A stretch of 50,147 nt of DNA from Gammaproteobacteria bacterium (GCA_004796365.1 QZLE01000064.1:1-50147), one strand, 5' to 3'. Numbered from the stretch's first letter, positions 8,391 through 21,638 are shown. Translations and numbers: made by a program. The notes: a model not told the origin generated them from the sequence alone.

Positions 8391-11300
8391 TTACTGTTCC
8401 TCTTTTTGCTTAGATTCGTTGAACCAGTTAAGCAAAAGCTCTTCTACAGTTGAAATATTCTTTGCAGGTAACGCATGATTTAATACAGTTTTTACTGCAT
8501 TTCGCACAGTTTTAGAAAGATTATTATCCATGATGGACTGATGCAATCCAGGTGCCTGCTCCCAGGGCGCTAAATAGACCTCAGGGAAATCAACCCAGCC
8601 AGCATCAATCATTCTATTTAGGGCATTTAACTCATTAACATTGCAAAGATTGGTACCTATTATAGTTGCAGAGGGCATAATAATTGTGCGCTGCTGGATT
8701 GATACTTGCGGTGCATAAAAGCTATAACGTTTCCCCCCCATATCGCCAAGATAGATAACCCTTCCTGTTAAGGGCTTGACCAACATTGACGAAACAGCAA
8801 GCGAATCCTTATGCGCTCTCTCAATAACCACATCCACCTTGAATTTTGAATCACCGAAAAATGAGCCAACCTTTTTTGCAACCGGCAAGTAGGTTTTAGA
8901 CGTAAACTGCCTGATGCCATCTCTAAATTTGTTAGCGTTTATCATCGGATCAGGTAATACCGGCATACCACTAAACCATTGGAAATCTTGGTTTTCTATA
9001 GCAAGGTTTTCAAGAGAAAAAATCCCTACTATCGATTCACCAAATCCCATGGAATTAACATAACTGCACTGCTCCCTGGTTTCGGTGATGACAACAACTC
9101 TCGCTCCTGATTCGCGTAAAATTTCAATTGTTTCCAGCCCAGTTATATCCTGAATCGTCTTACCATCACCGTAATAGACAACAACTGAATCCCCAGGAAT
9201 AATATCTGCCCTATTTAGCATTTCTAGCGCACTTACTCTTCCAGGCTTACCAACAAAAGTCATATTGTAACCAGTGGTTGCATTATGAAATGCTATGGTT
9301 CCACCGGGAACAAGGGCCTGGAAGCTTCTTGGAAATACCTCTTCGCCGGCATGGGAGATAACGTAATCCATAAGATTACCATCATTCTTATCTCTGATTT
9401 TTTCAAGGAATGACTCTCCCCAGTGCAGCCAACGTCTCCATTCTGCGGGATCTTCAGGAACTCGGGTAAAACAGTCCTGTGTTGTAAGATCATCACGACT
9501 GATAATTGGAATATTGTTCTTTTCACCAACTGCAACTCGCTCTTTAGTTGGAACCATACCGGTTACTTTCATTCGGTGCGCAGTAGCTAACTTTGCTGCC
9601 CATGAGCCCGAAGCAGATGATGCTCCTTCAATAAGGATCCGTTTACGCGGTTTAACCTTTAAGGCAGTAAATAATGTTCTATAAACTGTGCCAGCTGGTA
9701 AAAGATAACTACCTACTAGCTCAAACGGTACCTTCTGTGGTGGTTTGATACATTGTGGGCCATCAATCGTAATAAACTGTTGATGCGAACCGTCAGGTGA
9801 ATCCATGCCCTGGCTGTGAAAACCTGCTCCCATTGGCTCTGTAACAGCCTCTGGAGATAAAAAGTTGATCACACCTGGGTATATAGCCACAACATCACCG
9901 ATCTTAAGTCGACCAGTAAGCATAAGCTCTTCTCCAAGACCAACTACAAGCCCAACCCCACCAGACCCAGTGATATGAACATCTTTATCATGCATATTAA
10001 ATACTGATTCAGGAAAACCCGATAGGGCACTAATATCGTCTCTATTGATCTCCGAACCTAATACATAAAGTAGCGCCTGATGTGAGCGCGGTTCTGGCAC
10101 AGGTACAATGACCTGCTTTTCTGCCCGAATCGGTTCACCATGCAGCGCCTCGCCAGTTTCAAGGTCTTTTACGACGGCATATGCGTATTGCCATTCTGGA
10201 AGAGGAGTCTTTCCTGGATAAAAGGGTGCTCCAATCTTAAGCAGCCTCCCTTCCTTAACAAGATTATTTTGCTCATTATCACTAAACTGGGGACGATACT
10301 GTGTCGGCAAAGGTGGAGACTTCTTGCTAAAGAAAAGATCCAGCCCCTTCATTCCCCCGTGTTCCTGATCAATTACCGCAAGGGAGAATGCTTCAGCCTC
10401 AGCAGCCAATCCGACTTCAAAGCCTTGCTGAAAGCCTATCTGCACTAATTTAACTATAGCATTAGCAACCTTTCCACGGCCAACACTTACAGACTGCCTC
10501 AAACAACGCTGTATCTCTGCATGCTCCATAATAGCAGACCAGGGAACCGGAACTGGATGAGACCAAGAAGCCACATCCTCATGCCTTCTGATCATGGCAT
10601 CAGCTACAGTTGCATCTTCACCTTTAATAGCAGATATTGCCAAGGTATGAGCATGAGTTAAAGCATCATCAATACCGCCAGTCAAGCAGTCTACTAAACC
10701 AAGACTCTCAGCCCTGTCTGCATCTACCTGACGGCCTGATAACAATAAATACAAAGAATCATTTAGTGCTCTTTCTAGAGAGTTACTCTTAGTAACGATT
10801 ACCCTAGGTACCCTTTGTGTACCACCGAACCCAGGCGGAATAAACAGGTTAATCTCCGGCTGTGCAAATATTGCGCTTCTATCCGCAACTCTGAAATGAC
10901 AAGACATGGCCAGCTCACAGCCACCGCCTAACGCAAGCCCACTAATTGCTGCAATTACTGGCTTTTTCATCTGTTCAATTCTGGAAAAAAGCACATGACC
11001 TTTAGTAGCAAAAGCTCTAGCAGTATCACGGTCTTTGATCTGTTTAAAAATCTGTCGGATATCAGCCCCTGCTACAAAGCACTTTGGATTTTTGCTTCCG
11101 ATAACAATGGCCTTTACTTTTACATCTTGCTCCAAATCACCGACAATCTTAATCAGATCATCCAGCACCTCATTTGAAAGAGCATTAACAGGCTTGGCAT
11201 CAATAATAAGTGTTACTAAAAAAGCCTCTTTCCCCGATTTAGACGTTACAGAAAAATATTCTGCGCTAACGAAACGTTCCTTCCTAACCATCAGATTAGA

Positions 11301-14030
11301 AGATGATTTATGGGATTTAGATCTCCATTTACAGATCTTTTCATGCAGCTTATCAACAGATACCGGGTTAATAACACCTGATTTATCAAAGCCACTGTTG
11401 CCGTAAATAAGATCAATAAAAATCCTGCGCAGATATTTCCCATTTTGAGTTTCCGGAAATTGATCAACAACAATATAGGTGTCAGGAATTGCGAGCGTAC
11501 CCATTTCCGATTCAATAAAACTATTAATGCGGTCTACGTCTAGTTTAGATAGCCTTGTACCAGTTTTAATTTTGATAAAGGCAAGAGGGATGTTAACTTT
11601 ATGCGTATCCGGGGCAGCTATAACAATACAATCATCTACAGGAGAATCTGAGTTTATAAACTTATCGCGCCTTATTGCGTTTTCGATATCAGATGCGGCA
11701 AATACATTACCGCTGATGTTAATTGAATCATCATAATAATCATGAAACAAATAGGAATGGTCATCATTAATGCAAGCATAATCACCTAAAATAAAGGCTC
11801 CGTCCGGGTTATCGGATTGATCACAATATCTGGAATAATAGTGTGAATTTAAGGCATGTATATCTCCTGCCCAATTACTGTCAGTAACGTTGTCACCATC
11901 ACCCCAGATGGTTAGCATCATAGTGGGTAATGGTCGCTCTATTACTAACTCACCCCATTCGTTCGTCTCAGCAAGGCGGTATTTGAATCTGTTTTCGTTG
12001 TTTTTATTTATCGAAGGTATGCGAATCTGAGCTGACACCCATGGAAGAATAAAAGCTGCGCCATTTGACTTGAGCCTATAATCAGCATTCCCATAAAAAT
12101 GAGACCAAATAATTGTTCCTGACTCGCTACTAATATAGGAATTAATGAAGTTAGGAGTTAACAGTTCCATTGCAAACCTATGTATCTTTGGGTTAATAGG
12201 TTCTGCAGAAAACGAAGCTATTCGCAACGAAGACAGGTCATAGCTTTCAATAAGTCTTTGCTTCTCAGTATCCAGCATAAAGCTTTGAATTAGTGAGGCT
12301 TTGGTTATCAAAATAGTTACTTGCCTACGATATATAACAGAGGCAAATCTACCTGCATCAGGGTATATATGCGCCCCTTCAACCATTACCCCAGTAATAC
12401 GGTTAAGTAATGATGCTGATATGAGATATGACTGACCGACGATGCCACCAGGATCTGCAGTAACATAGATAACATCTCTTCCAGGTTTAGCATCAAAACA
12501 AACATTAACCGAGTTATTTACACCCATAGTTATACTGCTGTGAGTATGCACAATTGGTTTTGGCTTACCGGTCAAGCCTGAACTATAAGCAATAAACAGC
12601 GGGAATGAAGCTGGCAATGGTTCACAAGGACAAACATCCCAAAGAGCTGCAACAAGCTCTGGACCTGCCATTTTTTCGAGCTCTTGATACTGTTCCAACC
12701 CTAACTTATTACAAACCATGTTCATGGCCTGTTCTAGTAGCACAGCAGCAGAATAATCCCTGTTTTCACACTGGTTCCATTTCACAGCTTCGGTGCAGGC
12801 ATTATCAATAACGATCACACTTTGTGTAACAACAGATATCTCTCTAATCTTATTTAGTAAGGCTGTGCGAAAATTAATTGAGTTAATAGCATCAAGCCCT
12901 CCTTGCTCAATAAGAACGTCGCCAACCTCATGTAATACAACGCCAGGGGTTGTCGTTAACTCACCGCGCAAAGCATCAATTACCCGCATAATGATTTCAT
13001 TAGCTATTACAGAATCGCAATGCTCTTTAGCTAAATAGTCTACAATCTCAATTACTTTTTTACTGGAAACAAATTTATCCAGCGCCAGATCAACCACTGA
13101 ATCTTTTAGTTTTCTAATCTGGCCATTCTTAAGCGCCCCATTGGAGGTAATAACAATCTTTGCTCCAAGCTGCTCGATGCGATCGGCTAGAGTTTTTGCA
13201 GATAGCTCTGAATAAATAGATGTATATATAACACCGAGTCGCTTTGCCCCCTCTATCCAAATCACCTGATCAACAATATTAGGCAAAAATAGCGCAATTC
13301 TGTCGCCTACTTTTAGCCCCAACTCTTTCAGAGCGACAGCAGCCAATACGGACTGCATAAGAAGCTCTTTACGAGAAATTGTACCTTCATGAACCGGTCG
13401 ACCTAGTCCACCATAGGCAGATGCATCCCACTCCTCACCTTCAAAGATAAATGCAGCTTCATTACCCTGCCCTCCAAGCACATGGCGATCTACCTCATTA
13501 AAAGCTGAGTTAGTTAGCGCCCCTTTAAACCATTTAAAACAAGGAATGTGATCATGATCAAGAATTTGCTCCCATGGTGTCCACTGTTCAAGTGATATCG
13601 GACCAATATCGATGCATCGCCAGCCCTGCCACTTGCCTGATTGGGTCTGCTGTAACCATGATTTTTTATCACTGTTATACCAATGAAACGACTTTGCGGC
13701 TTGTTCGGCAAACGCCTGTTCAAAATCCTTATCGAACGCAGACCTCATCTCTTCACACTTCTGCATATTAATGACTGGATTGGCTTTTACATCAACAGGC
13801 AATTGCGGAATTAAATCGTCATCATTTTCAGCAACCTGACTCATGGATATATCAACAATATCTCCTGGATCAACAACTTCCTGTTCTTGCATTACAGCTC
13901 CTTGTGTACTTTTAGCGCCACTGTTGAATTTCAACCATCTTTCATGGGTAAAATCAAGTCTATTCTGGGGCATACCGATCATATCGAATAATAACCCGTA
14001 ATGCTTAGAATTATCCAGCATAAATGGCAA
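8391..14030 (-). CDS. Trifunctional propionyl-CoA synthase-like protein (acyl-CoA synthetase + enoyl-CoA hydratase + MDR enoyl-CoA reductase)
   Basis: AMP-binding FIAYSSGLTGKPKPIVHTHS and QNGKYLRRIF; crotonase FVAGADIRQIF..SGLALGGGCELAMSCHFRVA; reductase LIEGASSASGSWAAKLA; overall order and size as in Pcs. Confidence 0.88.
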   Translation of the reverse strand: MPFMLDNSKHYGLLFDMIGMPQNRLDFTHERWLKFNSGAKSTQGAVMQEQEVVDPGDIVDISMSQVAENDDDLIPQLPVDVKANPVINMQKCEEMRSAFDKDFEQAFAEQAAKSFHWYNSDKKSWLQQTQSGKWQGWRCIDIGPISLEQWTPWEQILDHDHIPCFKWFKGALTNSAFNEVDRHVLGGQGNEAAFIFEGEEWDASAYGGLGRPVHEGTISRKELLMQSVLAAVALKELGLKVGDRIALFLPNIVDQVIWIEGAKRLGVIYTSIYSELSAKTLADRIEQLGAKIVITSNGALKNGQIRKLKDSVVDLALDKFVSSKKVIEIVDYLAKEHCDSVIANEIIMRVIDALRGELTTTPGVVLHEVGDVLIEQGGLDAINSINFRTALLNKIREISVVTQSVIVIDNACTEAVKWNQCENRDYSAAVLLEQAMNMVCNKLGLEQYQELEKMAGPELVAALWDVCPCEPLPASFPLFIAYSSGLTGKPKPIVHTHSSITMGVNNSVNVCFDAKPGRDVIYVTADPGGIVGQSYLISASLLNRITGVMVEGAHIYPDAGRFASVIYRRQVTILITKASLIQSFMLDTEKQRLIESYDLSSLRIASFSAEPINPKIHRFAMELLTPNFINSYISSESGTIIWSHFYGNADYRLKSNGAAFILPWVSAQIRIPSINKNNENRFKYRLAETNEWGELVIERPLPTMMLTIWGDGDNVTDSNWAGDIHALNSHYYSRYCDQSDNPDGAFILGDYACINDDHSYLFHDYYDDSINISGNVFAASDIENAIRRDKFINSDSPVDDCIVIAAPDTHKVNIPLAFIKIKTGTRLSKLDVDRINSFIESEMGTLAIPDTYIVVDQFPETQNGKYLRRIFIDLIYGNSGFDKSGVINPVSVDKLHEKICKWRSKSHKSSSNLMVRKERFVSAEYFSVTSKSGKEAFLVTLIIDAKPVNALSNEVLDDLIKIVGDLEQDVKVKAIVIGSKNPKCFVAGADIRQIFKQIKDRDTARAFATKGHVLFSRIEQMKKPVIAAISGLALGGGCELAMSCHFRVADRSAIFAQPEINLFIPPGFGGTQRVPRVIVTKSNSLERALNDSLYLLLSGRQVDADRAESLGLVDCLTGGIDDALTHAHTLAISAIKGEDATVADAMIRRHEDVASWSHPVPVPWSAIMEHAEIQRCLRQSVSVGRGKVANAIVKLVQIGFQQGFEVGLAAEAEAFSLAVIDQEHGGMKGLDLFFSKKSPPLPTQYRPQFSDNEQNNLVKEGRLLKIGAPFYPGKTPLPEWQYAYAVVKDLETGEALHGEPIRAEKQVIVPVPEPRSHQALLYVLGSEINRDDISALSGFPESVFNMHDKDVHITGSGGVGLVVGLGEELMLTGRLKIGDVVAIYPGVINFLSPEAVTEPMGAGFHSQGMDSPDGSHQQFITIDGPQCIKPPQKVPFELVGSYLLPAGTVYRTLFTALKVKPRKRILIEGASSASGSWAAKLATAHRMKVTGMVPTKERVAVGEKNNIPIISRDDLTTQDCFTRVPEDPAEWRRWLHWGESFLEKIRDKNDGNLMDYVISHAGEEVFPRSFQALVPGGTIAFHNATTGYNMTFVGKPGRVSALEMLNRADIIPGDSVVVYYGDGKTIQDITGLETIEILRESGARVVVITETREQCSYVNSMGFGESIVGIFSLENLAIENQDFQWFSGMPVLPDPMINANKFRDGIRQFTSKTYLPVAKKVGSFFGDSKFKVDVVIERAHKDSLAVSSMLVKPLTGRVIYLGDMGGKRYSFYAPQVSIQQRTIIMPSATIIGTNLCNVNELNALNRMIDAGWVDFPEVYLAPWEQAPGLHQSIMDNNLSKTVRNAVKTVLNHALPAKNISTVEELLLNWFNESKQKEEQ

Positions 14031-16439: not shown

Positions 16440-16549
16440 CTCTTGACTATCCATACAAAAAAAAATGAAAATAGGTGAAGATGGTTGAAAGAAGCACGAA
16501 GCTTCAAATGGAATTTTATAGCTGGCCACAGCTTAAGGGAGTATCAAAT

Positions 16550-17350
16550 ATGCTAAGAGTAGTTTTTAACCAAAAAGGCGGCGTTGGTAAATCCACAATT
16601 ACCTGTAATCTTGCAGCAATAAGCGCATCCAAAGGGTTAAAGACCCTGGTGATCGATCTTGATCCACAATGCAATTCATCTCAATACTTACTTGGTGATG
16701 AAGCTGACAACGTCGAAAAAACTGCAGCACACTTCTTTGAGCAAATGCTTAGCTTCCAGATTTTCAAACATGAAACCACCGACTTCATCCATGAAACACC
16801 TTTTGAAAATCTGTTCGTACTGCCTGCATCACAGGAGCTAGAATCACTTCAGGGCAAGCTTGAAGCACGTTACAAAATGTACAAGCTCAAAGAAGCTTTG
16901 GCCAAGTTAGGCGAATTTGATGAGATTTATATAGATACCCCACCAGCACTAAACTTTTACTCAAGATCAGCGCTGATCGCCGCAAATACCTGCCTTATTC
17001 CATTTGATTGTGATAATTTTTCCCGACGCGCTCTTTATAGTGTTATCGACCACATCCAGGAAATACAAATGGATCATAACCAGGAGCTTATAGTTGAAGG
17101 AATTGTGGTAAATCAATTTCAATCGCGAGCCAATCTACCACAAAAACTTGTGCAGGAATTGATTGATGAAGAGCTACCAATTCTAGATTCAAAAATCAGA
17201 TCTTCTGTCAAAATTAGAGAATCACACGAATGCGCAACTCCAATGGTATTTTTTGCTCCAAAGCATAAAGTTACTGAAGAGTTTCTGCAATTGCATGAAA
17301 CACTGCAAGAAACAGAGGTTTCTACTCCGCAAAATCTAAGACGCGCATAG
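16550..17350 (+). CDS. ParA-family ATPase
   Basis: Internal ATG chosen: [23 protein letters not shown] deviant Walker [28 protein letters not shown]. The ORF track starts upstream at a GTG (16475). Confidence 0.9.
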
Positions 17351-17593
17351 TATTCATCGCTGCGCTTATATATTCCCGCAAATCAATCGCGCTGTTGCAG
17401 GAGCAATTTCAACTACAACAGCGTCAGTCAGCTCGCATTCTATGTGCAAATCTTAAACAATTTTCCAACTTTACAATGAACCCTTTCTCATTATTTATGC
17501 AAATAGTAAAAAAAATCCCTTCATACCCTGAAAAATATAGGTTTTTGGTCGATAATTACTTTAATAGCGATTAAGCCATGGAGTGTTGTTTTT

Positions 17594-19585
17594 TTGAAAT
17601 CATTTAAGAGTCTGTATTCACTGCTATCGATTTTTATATTCTATTTTGCGTCATGCTCAGTGTACGCAGCTGATCCAATTGACTCCGTCAGAATACTAAT
17701 CGACATCTCAGGCAGCATGAAGCAGAACGACCCCAACAACCTTAGGGCGCCTGCGATGAGAATGCTGGTGAATCTGCTTCCACCTGGTAGTGAGGCCGGT
17801 GTTTGGACATTTGCTAAATGGACCAACGAATTTGTTCGTCACGGCAAGGTTACAAAAGACTGGCAAACAGCAGCAACAAACAAAGCATCTCAAATAAGAT
17901 CACCAGGCCAATTTACCGATATTGCGCTAGTACTCGAAGACTCAAGCAGGGACTGGGATCAGCCCGTACCCTACGAACGCAGAAGCGTTATTTTGCTGAC
18001 TGATGGTGTTGTTGATGTTTCTAAAGATCCTTTAAGGAACATCGAATCCAGAAAAAAATTACTTGAAGAGATTGTTCCTTACTACAAAAGATCTGGAATT
18101 AAAATACACACAATAGCGCTTTCAGAAAATGCAGATATTGAGTTATTAGAAAATCTGGCAGTACAAACCGACGGCGCTCACATTATGGTTAAAAGCGCGG
18201 ACCAACTGCAAAAAGCCTTCTTAAAACTATTTGAAAAATCAGTAAAACGCGAAACATTGCCACTAAAAGGAAATAAGTTCAGCGTTGATTCCTCTGTAAA
18301 CGAGTTGACTATTTTAGTATTTAACAGCCCAGATTCTCCAAGAACGGAACTTAAGGACCCGGAAGGTAATCAATTTAAAAAAAATAAGAAGCCACCAAAG
18401 ATTAAGTGGCACCATGACTCGGGTTATGACCTGATAACCATCTCTAAACCAAAAGTTGGCGAATGGGAAATAATAGCGGATATTGACCCTGACAATAGGG
18501 TAATGATAGTCAGTGATTTAAAACTTAAAAGCTCACAAGTACCAAATAATCTTATCAACGGCGAGTCATTTCTATATGAAACCTGGCTTGAAGAAGAAGG
18601 TGAAATAATCGACAAACCTGACTTCCATAAATTTGTGAAATTCAGCATAGAGCAAACGCCCCCGGAAGGTAAAACTAAATCTTTCACAATGAAAGATCAC
18701 GGGCTAGCTGGTGATAAAGCTCCGCGTGATGGGATCTATACCTATAAGTTTGCAAAATCTCTGCGTACAACCGGAGAGCATGAAATTATTACTCAGGTTA
18801 ATGGCGAAACATTTCAAAGAGAATTCAGGCATACAATTACAGTTCATGATGACCCTTTATCAATCGAGACTAAACAAGAGATAGTTGACGGCAAAGGCAA
18901 GGTCGATATTGAAATTATGTTAACAAAAGATTGGATAGATCCAGACAGTATTGAGATTGCTGCAGAAATCACCTATCCAGACGGATTGAGCGAGTTACTT
19001 GAGCCTGAGTTTGATTTTGACCTTTGGAAATTAGTAGTTGAAGACATCGAACTAGATAAAAAATATGCCATTAATATCCAGATGATTGCTCAAACTGGCA
19101 CAGGGCGCCCAGTTAACCTTCGTACACCAATAATTGATATCTTTATGAAATCACCTGAGGTTGAGAAACCACCAATAGTTGAAGAGCCTGTTATCGAAGA
19201 ACCAGCAGAAGAAGTTGAAACTGAAGAAGTTAGCCTTTTGCTAATCATATTGGTATTTGTAGGATTCAATCTTATTGTTTTAACAATTATCGGGGTTGTC
19301 TATTTCTTCAACAAAAAAGAAAAACCTATCCCAATGTTGGATGAAGATGAAGATGAAGATGAAGAAGGTGACGAAGAAGAAGAGCCACTTGAAGCCGAAG
19401 CAAATAATGCTGACGAGCAGGCTGAAGAAGCTATAGCAACAGAAGAAAACCTGGAGTCGGAAATTGAAGAAAAGGCTGCAGATAACTTAGGCGAAAGCGA
19501 GGTAAATGCTTCATCAGGCGACGAAGAACTAGATGCTGAATTAGAAGCAATTGCCAAAGAGAATCAGGATGAAAATAAAGATTAA
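17594..19585 (+). CDS. VWA domain-containing membrane protein with signal peptide, C-terminal TM and acidic cytoplasmic tail (TIGR03503-like by memory)
   Basis: TTG start; signal-peptide-like N-terminus; MIDAS RILIDISGSM; TM LLLIILVFVGFNLIVLTIIGVVYFF; DEDEDEDEEGDEEEE tail. Confidence 0.82.
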   Translation: MKSFKSLYSLLSIFIFYFASCSVYAADPIDSVRILIDISGSMKQNDPNNLRAPAMRMLVNLLPPGSEAGVWTFAKWTNEFVRHGKVTKDWQTAATNKASQIRSPGQFTDIALVLEDSSRDWDQPVPYERRSVILLTDGVVDVSKDPLRNIESRKKLLEEIVPYYKRSGIKIHTIALSENADIELLENLAVQTDGAHIMVKSADQLQKAFLKLFEKSVKRETLPLKGNKFSVDSSVNELTILVFNSPDSPRTELKDPEGNQFKKNKKPPKIKWHHDSGYDLITISKPKVGEWEIIADIDPDNRVMIVSDLKLKSSQVPNNLINGESFLYETWLEEEGEIIDKPDFHKFVKFSIEQTPPEGKTKSFTMKDHGLAGDKAPRDGIYTYKFAKSLRTTGEHEIITQVNGETFQREFRHTITVHDDPLSIETKQEIVDGKGKVDIEIMLTKDWIDPDSIEIAAEITYPDGLSELLEPEFDFDLWKLVVEDIELDKKYAINIQMIAQTGTGRPVNLRTPIIDIFMKSPEVEKPPIVEEPVIEEPAEEVETEEVSLLLIILVFVGFNLIVLTIIGVVYFFNKKEKPIPMLDEDEDEDEEGDEEEEPLEAEANNADEQAEEAIATEENLESEIEEKAADNLGESEVNASSGDEELDAELEAIAKENQDENKD

Positions 19586-19626
19586 TAAAATCTCTAAGAA
19601 TAAGGTGCAAACCATAAGGAGGTATA

Positions 19627-20754
19627 ATGGACGATAAGCTATCAACGGCAGATATCCTAATATTCCTTGCTGCAACTGAATTTTTAGTAATTATAATTAT
19701 CTGTATTGTTGTGTTTTTATTTGTAATGTCACGCCGCAAAAAAAGTGATGCGAATGCAACTACCAATCTTGTAAATAAAATTAAATCCAAAAAAGTTGAG
19801 CGCAAATCTGAACTCTCATCGATACTATCAGATACGTATAATATTGAAGGCGATAAGCTAAAAAAAGAAACAGAAAAGCTTATGAAGATGGAGAACCAAT
19901 TCTATCAACGCTTCATAAAAACTTACCTTACGCGCGATGCTAATGCAGTTGAAATGATAGATGAAGATCTTAAAGAGCTGCTAAAAAACTACAACAAACT
20001 TGTTCCTAAACATGACCAAAAAGATGAACGCGCTGAAGAAGCGCTGGCTGTAATTGACAACCTTAGTGAAGACGCTGCTGAAAACGAAGAACAAATTAAA
20101 CGCCTTAAAGAAACCATAAACAACCTTTCTGATGACCTTAAGCAGTACAAGAATACCATCAACCGCTTATTCTTTGAGTATTCTGCAATGTTTGGTGTTG
20201 ACGTAGATCCGCGAAATCAGCTGACTGCTACAGAAATTCTTTCACGACTTGAGACCGGCAAGCTTGGTGATGATGAACCATCACTGTCTGACATGGATGA
20301 AGATGAAAATGAAGATACACCAGTCGAATATTTTGATGACTCGGTCGATGTAGAATCAGCCGAAGAAGAGACTGTAGTGGAGAGTGATATTGAGTCACAG
20401 GCCACACCTACAGAAGATAAATCTGGTCAACAGGCTGCAGAGCCAGCCCCAGAAAAAATTTCTGAACAGAAACCCAAATCGCCACCACCAGCGCAACCAT
20501 TGCCAGATGAGTTAATAGCTGACTTGCTTGGCGAAGATTCTGCTCCAGCTGCTAAACCAGCACCTAAGCCAGAACCAAAACCAGAGCGTGCACCAGAACC
20601 AGCGCCTCAACAAGCTCCTGAGCCTAAGCCATCTCCTGATGAATCTGAAACTGCAGAAGAAGCCGAAGACAATGCTCCAAAATCCGAGTTAGAGCAGCAA
20701 GAGGATGATTTCGAAAAAGAGTTTGCAGCATTAGTTGGCAAAAAAGACGACTAA
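19627..20754 (+). CDS. Single-TM protein with coiled-coil and acidic/Pro-Ala-rich tail, function unknown
   Basis: 375 aa; N-terminal TM IFLAATEFLVIIIICIVVFLFVM; charged heptad-like region; AKPAPKPEPKPERAPEPAPQQAPEPKPSP; preceded by AAGGAGG-like RBS. Confidence 0.8.
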   Translation: MDDKLSTADILIFLAATEFLVIIIICIVVFLFVMSRRKKSDANATTNLVNKIKSKKVERKSELSSILSDTYNIEGDKLKKETEKLMKMENQFYQRFIKTYLTRDANAVEMIDEDLKELLKNYNKLVPKHDQKDERAEEALAVIDNLSEDAAENEEQIKRLKETINNLSDDLKQYKNTINRLFFEYSAMFGVDVDPRNQLTATEILSRLETGKLGDDEPSLSDMDEDENEDTPVEYFDDSVDVESAEEETVVESDIESQATPTEDKSGQQAAEPAPEKISEQKPKSPPPAQPLPDELIADLLGEDSAPAAKPAPKPEPKPERAPEPAPQQAPEPKPSPDESETAEEAEDNAPKSELEQQEDDFEKEFAALVGKKDD

Positions 20755-20758
20755 TAAA

Positions 20759-20782
20759 AGAGGCAATTCTTCAATTGCCTCT
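20759..20782. terminator. Perfect 10-bp stem hairpin between convergent genes
   Basis: AGAGGCAATT-CTTC-AATTGCCTCT; sits between stops of a + and a - gene. Confidence 0.65.
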
Positions 20783-20813: not shown

Positions 20814-21563
20814 CTAAAAATGATATCTCAGGTTTCCATATACCCCTTCAACAGAGATATCACCTGAAAGACCGCCGATATCATCAATATCGATACCAAA
20901 CTGCCTCCAGCCAAGCTCAAATCCAAGACCATAATCAAACTCATAACCGGCGCACACCCTGAAATCTGTTATGCCTGAGCCGTCATATTCAATAGCGCTT
21001 CCTTCTCCGGAAAAATAAAAACCTGTCATTGGCAAATCGATTTGCGCCTTGGCATAAAGCATTGGCACAGGAACATCAAAATCACGAGTGCTCTTTTGAG
21101 TTGTAGTCTGAGAGTAAATTTCCACTTCTCCATTTAGAACTTTAATATCAAGGCCGATATCGAAATTTACCCAGTTATCAAGTATTTCGTAATACAAAAT
21201 CAGATCAGTATCATCAAGCTGGAATTTTGAATCAATTGATTCATTTACATTATAAGTAATATTGTCAAACACGAAGCTTTGATCAAGAACGTGTGATCCA
21301 GTTGTACTGATTTTTGAATGCTGAACCTTAACATTTGGAATCATTGGCACAAAATGTTCAACAGCCAAATAAAATGAAACGCCGCTGTTATTATCTAATT
21401 TAAGGTCATCTTCCAATCCTACATTTGAACCATTGTAATTTACAAAACCTTCAACATTTTGTGACCAAAAGCCAACGCCAGCATAAATACCAAGTATATT
21501 GTCTGCACACGCAAGTGATGGCATAAAGAATAAGAGTGGGAATAGCAGCCTAATTTTTTTCAT
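20814..21563 (-). CDS. TIGR04219-like outer membrane beta-barrel protein
   Basis: Signal peptide MKKIRLLFPLLFFMPSLACA; alternating amphipathic strands; C-terminal aromatic GNLRYHF. ORF track extends to 21599. Confidence 0.75.
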   Translation of the reverse strand: MKKIRLLFPLLFFMPSLACADNILGIYAGVGFWSQNVEGFVNYNGSNVGLEDDLKLDNNSGVSFYLAVEHFVPMIPNVKVQHSKISTTGSHVLDQSFVFDNITYNVNESIDSKFQLDDTDLILYYEILDNWVNFDIGLDIKVLNGEVEIYSQTTTQKSTRDFDVPVPMLYAKAQIDLPMTGFYFSGEGSAIEYDGSGITDFRVCAGYEFDYGLGFELGWRQFGIDIDDIGGLSGDISVEGVYGNLRYHF

Positions 21564-21638
21564 AATAACTCCATTTAATTTTATATTTGCTAACCTCATT
21601 CTAAGGCAAACACTTGAAAGAGCAACTAAAACATCATA

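Follow-up and report, generated by a model that had tools for sequence, protein, structure and literature searches.

The 50,147-nucleotide stretch of DNA from Gammaproteobacteria bacterium that was analysed here (GCA_004796365.1 QZLE01000064.1:1-50147, hereafter the window) carries a conserved two-gene module, in which a gene for a VWA-domain protein is followed on the same strand by a gene for a protein with an N-terminal transmembrane (TM) helix and a coiled coil, designated TMcc. The evidence comes from 274 genomes sampled across the class, 77 of which carry genes of the VWA (TIGR03503) type, and from approximately 15 kb read around most of these 77 genes and around 80 named loci from 84,980 species genomes, the carriers of the latter including Thiotrichaceae, Methylophaga, Sedimenticola, Kangiella, Pleionea, Chromatiales and symbionts of tubeworms and clams. 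In the pooled set of 123 distinct VWA loci, a TMcc gene lies immediately 3' of the VWA gene in 107, most commonly with a 4-nt overlap (a spacing of -4 nt), and the two proteins diverge in parallel, their distance matrices showing a correlation of r=0.71, a relation that common descent would by itself produce as well. The loci share no further conserved gene next to the pair, except in three lineages (L038/L210, L154 and L089), where a receiver-TPR gene and a histidine-kinase-like HATPase gene occupy positions +2 and +3 from the VWA gene, on the same strand and directly after TMcc, an arrangement suggestive of receiver signalling.

The features of the module in the window are as follows.

17594..19585, plus strand: gene for the putative VWA receptor, 663 residues, TTG start; PF00092 E 1.7e-7; TIGR03503 156 bits; AlphaFold2 (AF2) pLDDT 83.7
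17702..17716, plus strand: metal ion-dependent adhesion site (MIDAS) DISGS, VWA residues 37-41; conservation across 104 homologues 97-99% at each of D37, S39, S41, T108 and D137
19235..19318, plus strand: C-terminal TM helix of the VWA protein, residues 548-575, by hydropathy and as an AF2 helix (548-575)
19268..19270, plus strand: Asn559 codon, inside the VWA TM helix
19319..19582, plus strand: predicted acidic cytoplasmic tail of the VWA protein, 40 D/E vs 6 K/R after the TM helix
19627..20754, plus strand: gene for the TMcc partner, 375 residues, ATG start, the open reading frame (ORF) directly 3' of VWA
19648..19728, plus strand: TM helix of TMcc, approximately residues 8-34, by hydropathy, with RRKK next
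19678..19680, plus strand: Glu18 codon, intramembrane, TMcc

The TMcc partner and the extent of the pair

The window's TMcc protein has an N-terminal TM helix followed by RRKK, which predicts its C-terminus to be inside, and then a coiled coil and an acidic, proline-rich tail, a layout that the first-pass annotation had described correctly. Its body holds 85 D/E vs 46 K/R, and it has no convincing match to a Pfam or NCBIfam family. Six of the 107 partners were first missed by gene calling, some of them behind long antisense ORFs over acidic regions; in the window, such ORFs cover the acidic regions at 19300-19557 and 19431-19805, both on the minus strand.

The acidity of the VWA protein and that of its partner show no overall correlation (rho -0.10). 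In five of seven loci with a strongly acidic VWA tail (noted for L059, L065, L067, L070 and L075), the partner is short and near neutral, as if the acidic segment could be placed on either protein; the pair in the window has one on both. A defence system was considered and set aside, as PADLOC returned only weak coiled-coil or P-loop matches, and a search for viral relatives confirmed none. A literature search found no paper describing the VWA–TMcc pair, which appears to be undescribed.

Polar residues inside the two membrane helices

When residue conservation is scored over 104 VWA–TMcc pairs, Asn559 is the sole VWA position after R409 that is conserved in more than 85% (96%), and it is invariant in the VWA alignment A1. 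In TMcc, despite a mean identity of 19% among these proteins, no residue is better conserved than Glu18 (96%), which also forms the sole invariant column of the 21-member TMcc alignment A2. A Glu within the TM helix is present in 105 of the 107 partners vs a central Glu in 8 of 176 other N-terminal hydrophobic segments from the same loci. Counted from the cytoplasmic end, the Asn lies mostly 12 or 15 and the Glu 15 or 18 residues in, that is, at a similar depth. The Asn is missing in 6 of 121 loci with a partner vs 5 of 11 without an adjacent one (p=5e-4), and both partners that lack a properly placed Glu face a VWA protein that lacks the Asn (p=0.002); neither p value is corrected for shared ancestry, and a small number of divergent helices were assigned by eye.

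These observations suggest that a buried Asn-Glu hydrogen bond would link the two helices, and together with the conserved adjacency and the parallel divergence of the two proteins they indicate that VWA and TMcc quite probably form a physical complex. To that extent the membrane-tethered complex with cytoplasmic acidic tails that had been suggested from the DNA of the window is well supported for the VWA–TMcc pair; its positioning by an ATPase is not (see below). The two polar residues had gone unmentioned in that annotation, as had the three beta-sandwich domains of the VWA protein and its sub-threshold match to TIGR03503.

A near-invariant acidic residue in the N-terminal TM helix of TMcc might instead be taken to mean that Glu and Asn form an ion path, the pair being a small transducer of ion-motive force akin to the helices of ExbD/TolR or MotB. 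Known transducers of this kind, however, use an Asp, a multi-pass partner of the ExbB/MotA type and a periplasmic C-terminal domain, whereas here there is one helix per protein, the RRKK that follows the TMcc helix predicts most of this protein to be cytoplasmic, and the pair has no further gene conserved next to it, although such a partner could be unlinked. An ion path is regarded as very improbable.

The VWA protein

The VWA protein comprises, in order, a signal peptide (approximately residues 1-26), the VWA domain (29-216), three beta-sandwich domains (approximately 225-517), a linker, the TM helix and the acidic tail. The AF2 model (pLDDT 83.7) contains a signal-peptide helix, the VWA domain, one TM helix preceded by a disordered linker, and a tail modelled for the most part at low confidence, and the strands that follow the VWA domain are read as the three beta-sandwich domains. 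The PF00092 match is above the cut-off, and Pfam adds only a beta-sandwich domain. The domain carries the DxSxS...T...D pattern of a MIDAS, so that metal-dependent ligand binding is predicted. The intact MIDAS, the single C-terminal TM helix and the acidic tail are as first annotated; DISGS starts at residue 37, T108 and D137 are conserved as well, and the tail has approximately 90 residues.

Structure matches reach the level of domains only and are of a generic VWA or Ig-like kind, so that a known fold for the whole ectodomain was rejected. SpaC ranks first among these adhesin-type matches, the TM-score of the matches is about 0.2, and 4rck matches the VWA domain only, weakly.

The protein covers nearly the whole of TIGR03503, an NCBIfam hypothetical equivalog, with profile positions 2-372 of 374 aligned to residues 221-576, but its score of 156.1 bits is half of the curated cut-off of 305.6 bits and places it outside the family as defined. 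The sole sampled genome with a protein above that cut-off is G139, whose 439-residue protein (locus L036) retains the TM Asn and has neither a MIDAS nor an adjacent TMcc, which implies that TIGR03503 itself describes a divergent branch. No function is attached to this family, and a literature search found no paper on TIGR03503 or on a VWA flagellar protein.

Co-occurrence with flagella

Of the 77 VWA genomes, 74 encode FliM or FlhF, vs 73 of the 197 others (p=2e-21). The association persists when one genome is taken per family (171 families, median p 2e-15) and in genomes of at least 2.5 Mb (p=1e-8), and a control trait, the type VI secretion system (T6SS), shows none (p=0.12). In the window's own genome (G000), fliM and flhF lie on contig C6. 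Two of the three VWA genomes without FliM or FlhF are G200, which is 64% complete, and G098, in which the VWA gene is frameshifted and the TMcc frame truncated (L226, G098:C71, 325-2126), possibly through an assembly error; a relative of G098, G218, has both genes intact. The third, G081, is taken up below. A flagellar or chemotaxis role of the pair is mildly favoured.

A FliM-like motif in the acidic tails

The tails of several family members repeat the peptide D[DE]IDALL, whose sequence is that of the N-terminal EIDAL docking peptide of FliM (an example of the FliM N-terminus being ILSQDEIDALLHGV). The pattern D[IL]D.[LI][LI] occurs at 36 sites in 19 of 99 tails vs 0.42 in shuffles, and a looser one at 59 sites in 28 of the 99 tails vs 5.3 in shuffles. 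A codon scan of 12 whole genomes for D[DE]IDALL returned 19 sites, namely eight FliM N-termini, nine sites in TMcc tails and two others (a coiled-coil membrane protein on contig C7 of G000 and a PurD-like protein); the reversed pattern returned none in the same genomes. FliM differs in having one copy, at its N-terminus, whereas the motif-bearing membrane proteins here carry between one and three exact copies, located near the C-terminal end. The EIDAL motif of FliM binds CheY (PMC6946799), and the FliM N-terminus is bound by FlhG (PMC12826062, PMC11236974). A docking of the FliM type is no more than tentatively suggested for the motif-bearing members.

In the C7 coiled-coil protein (L261:8559-10682, 707 residues), the N-terminal TM helix contains a Glu and the acidic region contains SPDDIDALLANAG, and the protein shows weak similarity to the partner of VWA at L094; CheY-like and CheC/CheX-like genes are found approximately 5 kb upstream of its gene.

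Proposed mechanism and its weighing

In the model proposed here, which we regard as evenly poised, VWA and TMcc constitute an inner-membrane pair in which a periplasmic receptor or anchor is joined to a scaffold in the cytoplasm, and regulators of the flagellum or of chemotaxis dock on the latter. The MIDAS domain would project into the periplasm on the three beta-sandwich domains and bind in a metal-dependent manner, and the VWA helix would pair with that of TMcc by the buried Asn-Glu contact. TMcc would supply the cytoplasmic coiled coil, with an acidic tail on one or both proteins, the tails being placed in the cytoplasm by the positive-inside rule. Binding of an outside ligand or of an envelope part would then be relayed through the helices to the tails, which in flagellated cells would serve as docking sites for such regulators; where a branch has D[DE]IDALL, its tails would take the same partners as the FliM N-terminus, either a receiver of the CheY type or FlhG, an ATPase of the MinD/ParA type. 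What the sequences show is the conserved pair, the intact MIDAS, the polar residues within the helices, the co-occurrence with flagella and the enrichment of the motif; complex formation, ligand binding, relay, docking partner and motility effect are steps that we infer. The copy in the window has all of the core features and lacks the canonical docking motif, so that for this copy docking would hold by analogy only.

Several points speak against this model. The p values for Asn and Glu take no account of shared ancestry, and the AF2 model of the two helices (pTM 0.42), obtained from in-frame gene pairs read through their stops, is too weak to count, and MAFFT misaligned the Asn columns. The 12 scanned genomes were mostly chosen for tails with the motif, so that the scan speaks to specificity and not to frequency. 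The window's own tails lack D[DE]IDALL, which in its genome occurs only in FliM and the C7 protein, and with 28 of 99 tails carrying even the looser motif, docking is not generalisable. Approximately half of the flagellated genomes are without the module, which would make it accessory; no flagellar genes were recognised beside it, though most neighbours are without annotation; and G081, which is 99% complete and has neither FliM nor FlhF, retains an intact pair and is a true exception. Co-occurrence may also reflect a motile lifestyle, against which it was controlled only by taking one genome per family, by a size cut and by a single unrelated trait.

Some of these points are shared by a different explanation, in which the pair would serve surface adhesion or envelope sensing in general and would have no direct part in flagellar function. 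Motile, free-living species would merely be the ones that tend to have it, and the IDALL-like peptides would be amphipathic repeats that happen to occur in acidic linkers. The lack of recognised genomic linkage to flagellar genes, the pair retained in G081, the absence of the motif from most tails and the generic VWA and Ig-like adhesin folds, SpaC first among them, would all fit such a complex. It is on the whole unlikely, however, since the flagellar association holds under family sampling and the size cut with T6SS showing none, and since the motif far exceeds its frequency in shuffles (36 vs 0.42) and is, genome-wide, nearly confined to FliM and the tails. Within the model of a pair that docks flagellar or chemotaxis regulators, the most specific version would be a new receptor of flagellated Gammaproteobacteria, assembled by Asn and Glu, whose FliM-mimicking tails catch CheY-P or FlhG and so inform the motor or the flagellum-counting switch of whatever the VWA domain contacts in the periplasm; as a whole, this version is decidedly doubtful.

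The pair bears on two open questions, namely how bacteria signal contact with a surface or with their own envelope to the flagellar motor, and what sets the position and number of polar flagella. As a widespread and apparently undescribed pair it offers a concrete candidate for both, and Asn559 and Glu18 provide sharp handles on its assembly.

The ParA gene and other neighbours

Further features of the window adjoin the module.

16550..17350, plus strand: solo ParA-family ATPase gene, ATG start with the ribosome-binding site GGGAG just 5'; AAA_31 E 1.7e-35; intact KGGVGKST; a neighbour outside the module
20759..20782, minus strand: hairpin between convergent genes, 10-bp stem, z about -5, with the T-run TTTTATTAG on the minus strand

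The first-pass annotation had treated ParA, VWA and TMcc as three same-strand genes with gaps of 243 nt (ParA–VWA) and 41 nt (VWA–TMcc), which the coordinates match exactly, and as a single envelope complex positioned by the ATPase. The shared direction of the genes is consistent with that, as is the same order in G072, which belongs to a different family and in which chance is unlikely to have produced it. The orthologues of this ParA nevertheless constitute a clearly delimited family, with identities of 46-80% for most members, that is present in 30 of the 274 genomes and has no conserved neighbouring genes. They occur in 10 of the 77 VWA genomes vs 20 of the 197 others (p=0.52), that is, independently of VWA, and adjoin the VWA gene in two loci only, the window and G072; in other VWA genomes they lie elsewhere, including G104, the nearest relative, where ParA sits on another contig than VWA. 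For these reasons ParA is placed outside the module and was rejected as a core component, and a three-gene complex positioned by the ATPase is considered exceedingly improbable. All three families are rarely found together, an outcome that the first-pass annotation had named as one that would refute its reading; VWA and TMcc nearly always are. The order ParA, VWA, TMcc that two different families share was recorded for 16475-17350 of the window and for L039:6573-7364.

The description of ParA as solo, without ParB or parS, was borne out: the gene is flanked by srkA (PRK11768) and VWA, and parS-like sites in the 50-kb window are not above chance (one site with three mismatches vs 1.6 expected). 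Its deviant Walker A and AAA_31 match (E 1.7e-35) are as in ParABS systems, from which it differs in having no adjacent ParB gene and no nearby parS. Those same two features and the lack of a ParB nearby are shared with solo chromosomal ParA ATPases, but the window's ParA belongs to a distinct orthologue family without conserved neighbours.

The hairpin that had been taken as a clear end of the block is real, but with its T-run on the minus strand it is not a clear terminator of these genes and best fits a terminator for the convergent gene at 20814-21599, which encodes an outer-membrane protein. Elsewhere in the window, a 1879-residue ORF (8391-14030, minus strand) resembles fused acyl-CoA synthetase, enoyl-CoA hydratase and reductase domains.

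Comparison with known systems

In its layout, TMcc is comparable to FipA, which has an N-terminal TM helix and a coiled coil and is defined by DUF2802. It differs in that no DUF2802 match was found in TMcc or in 20 relatives, and FipA is not known to have a VWA partner gene. FipA is a membrane protein and partner of FlhF in polar flagellum formation in Gammaproteobacteria (PMC11620751, PMC12826062). Flagellar regulators, FlhF among them, are recruited by the polar landmark protein HubP (PMC11236974, PMC12918733). Like HubP/FimV, the VWA protein combines a binding domain in the periplasm with a single TM helix and an extensive acidic region in the cytoplasm, but it has VWA and beta-sandwich domains in place of LysM, no C-terminal FimV/TPR domain was found in either VWA or TMcc, and there are two proteins rather than one. 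With integrin I-domain proteins and adhesins of the SpaC type it shares a MIDAS-bearing VWA domain and extracytoplasmic beta-sandwich domains, whereas its separate TM partner with a buried Glu sets it apart and the matches are at the level of domains only. Taken together, the pair resembles HubP/FimV and FipA in layout and lineage, and it appears to be akin to membrane-anchored landmarks or receptors without belonging to any of these systems.

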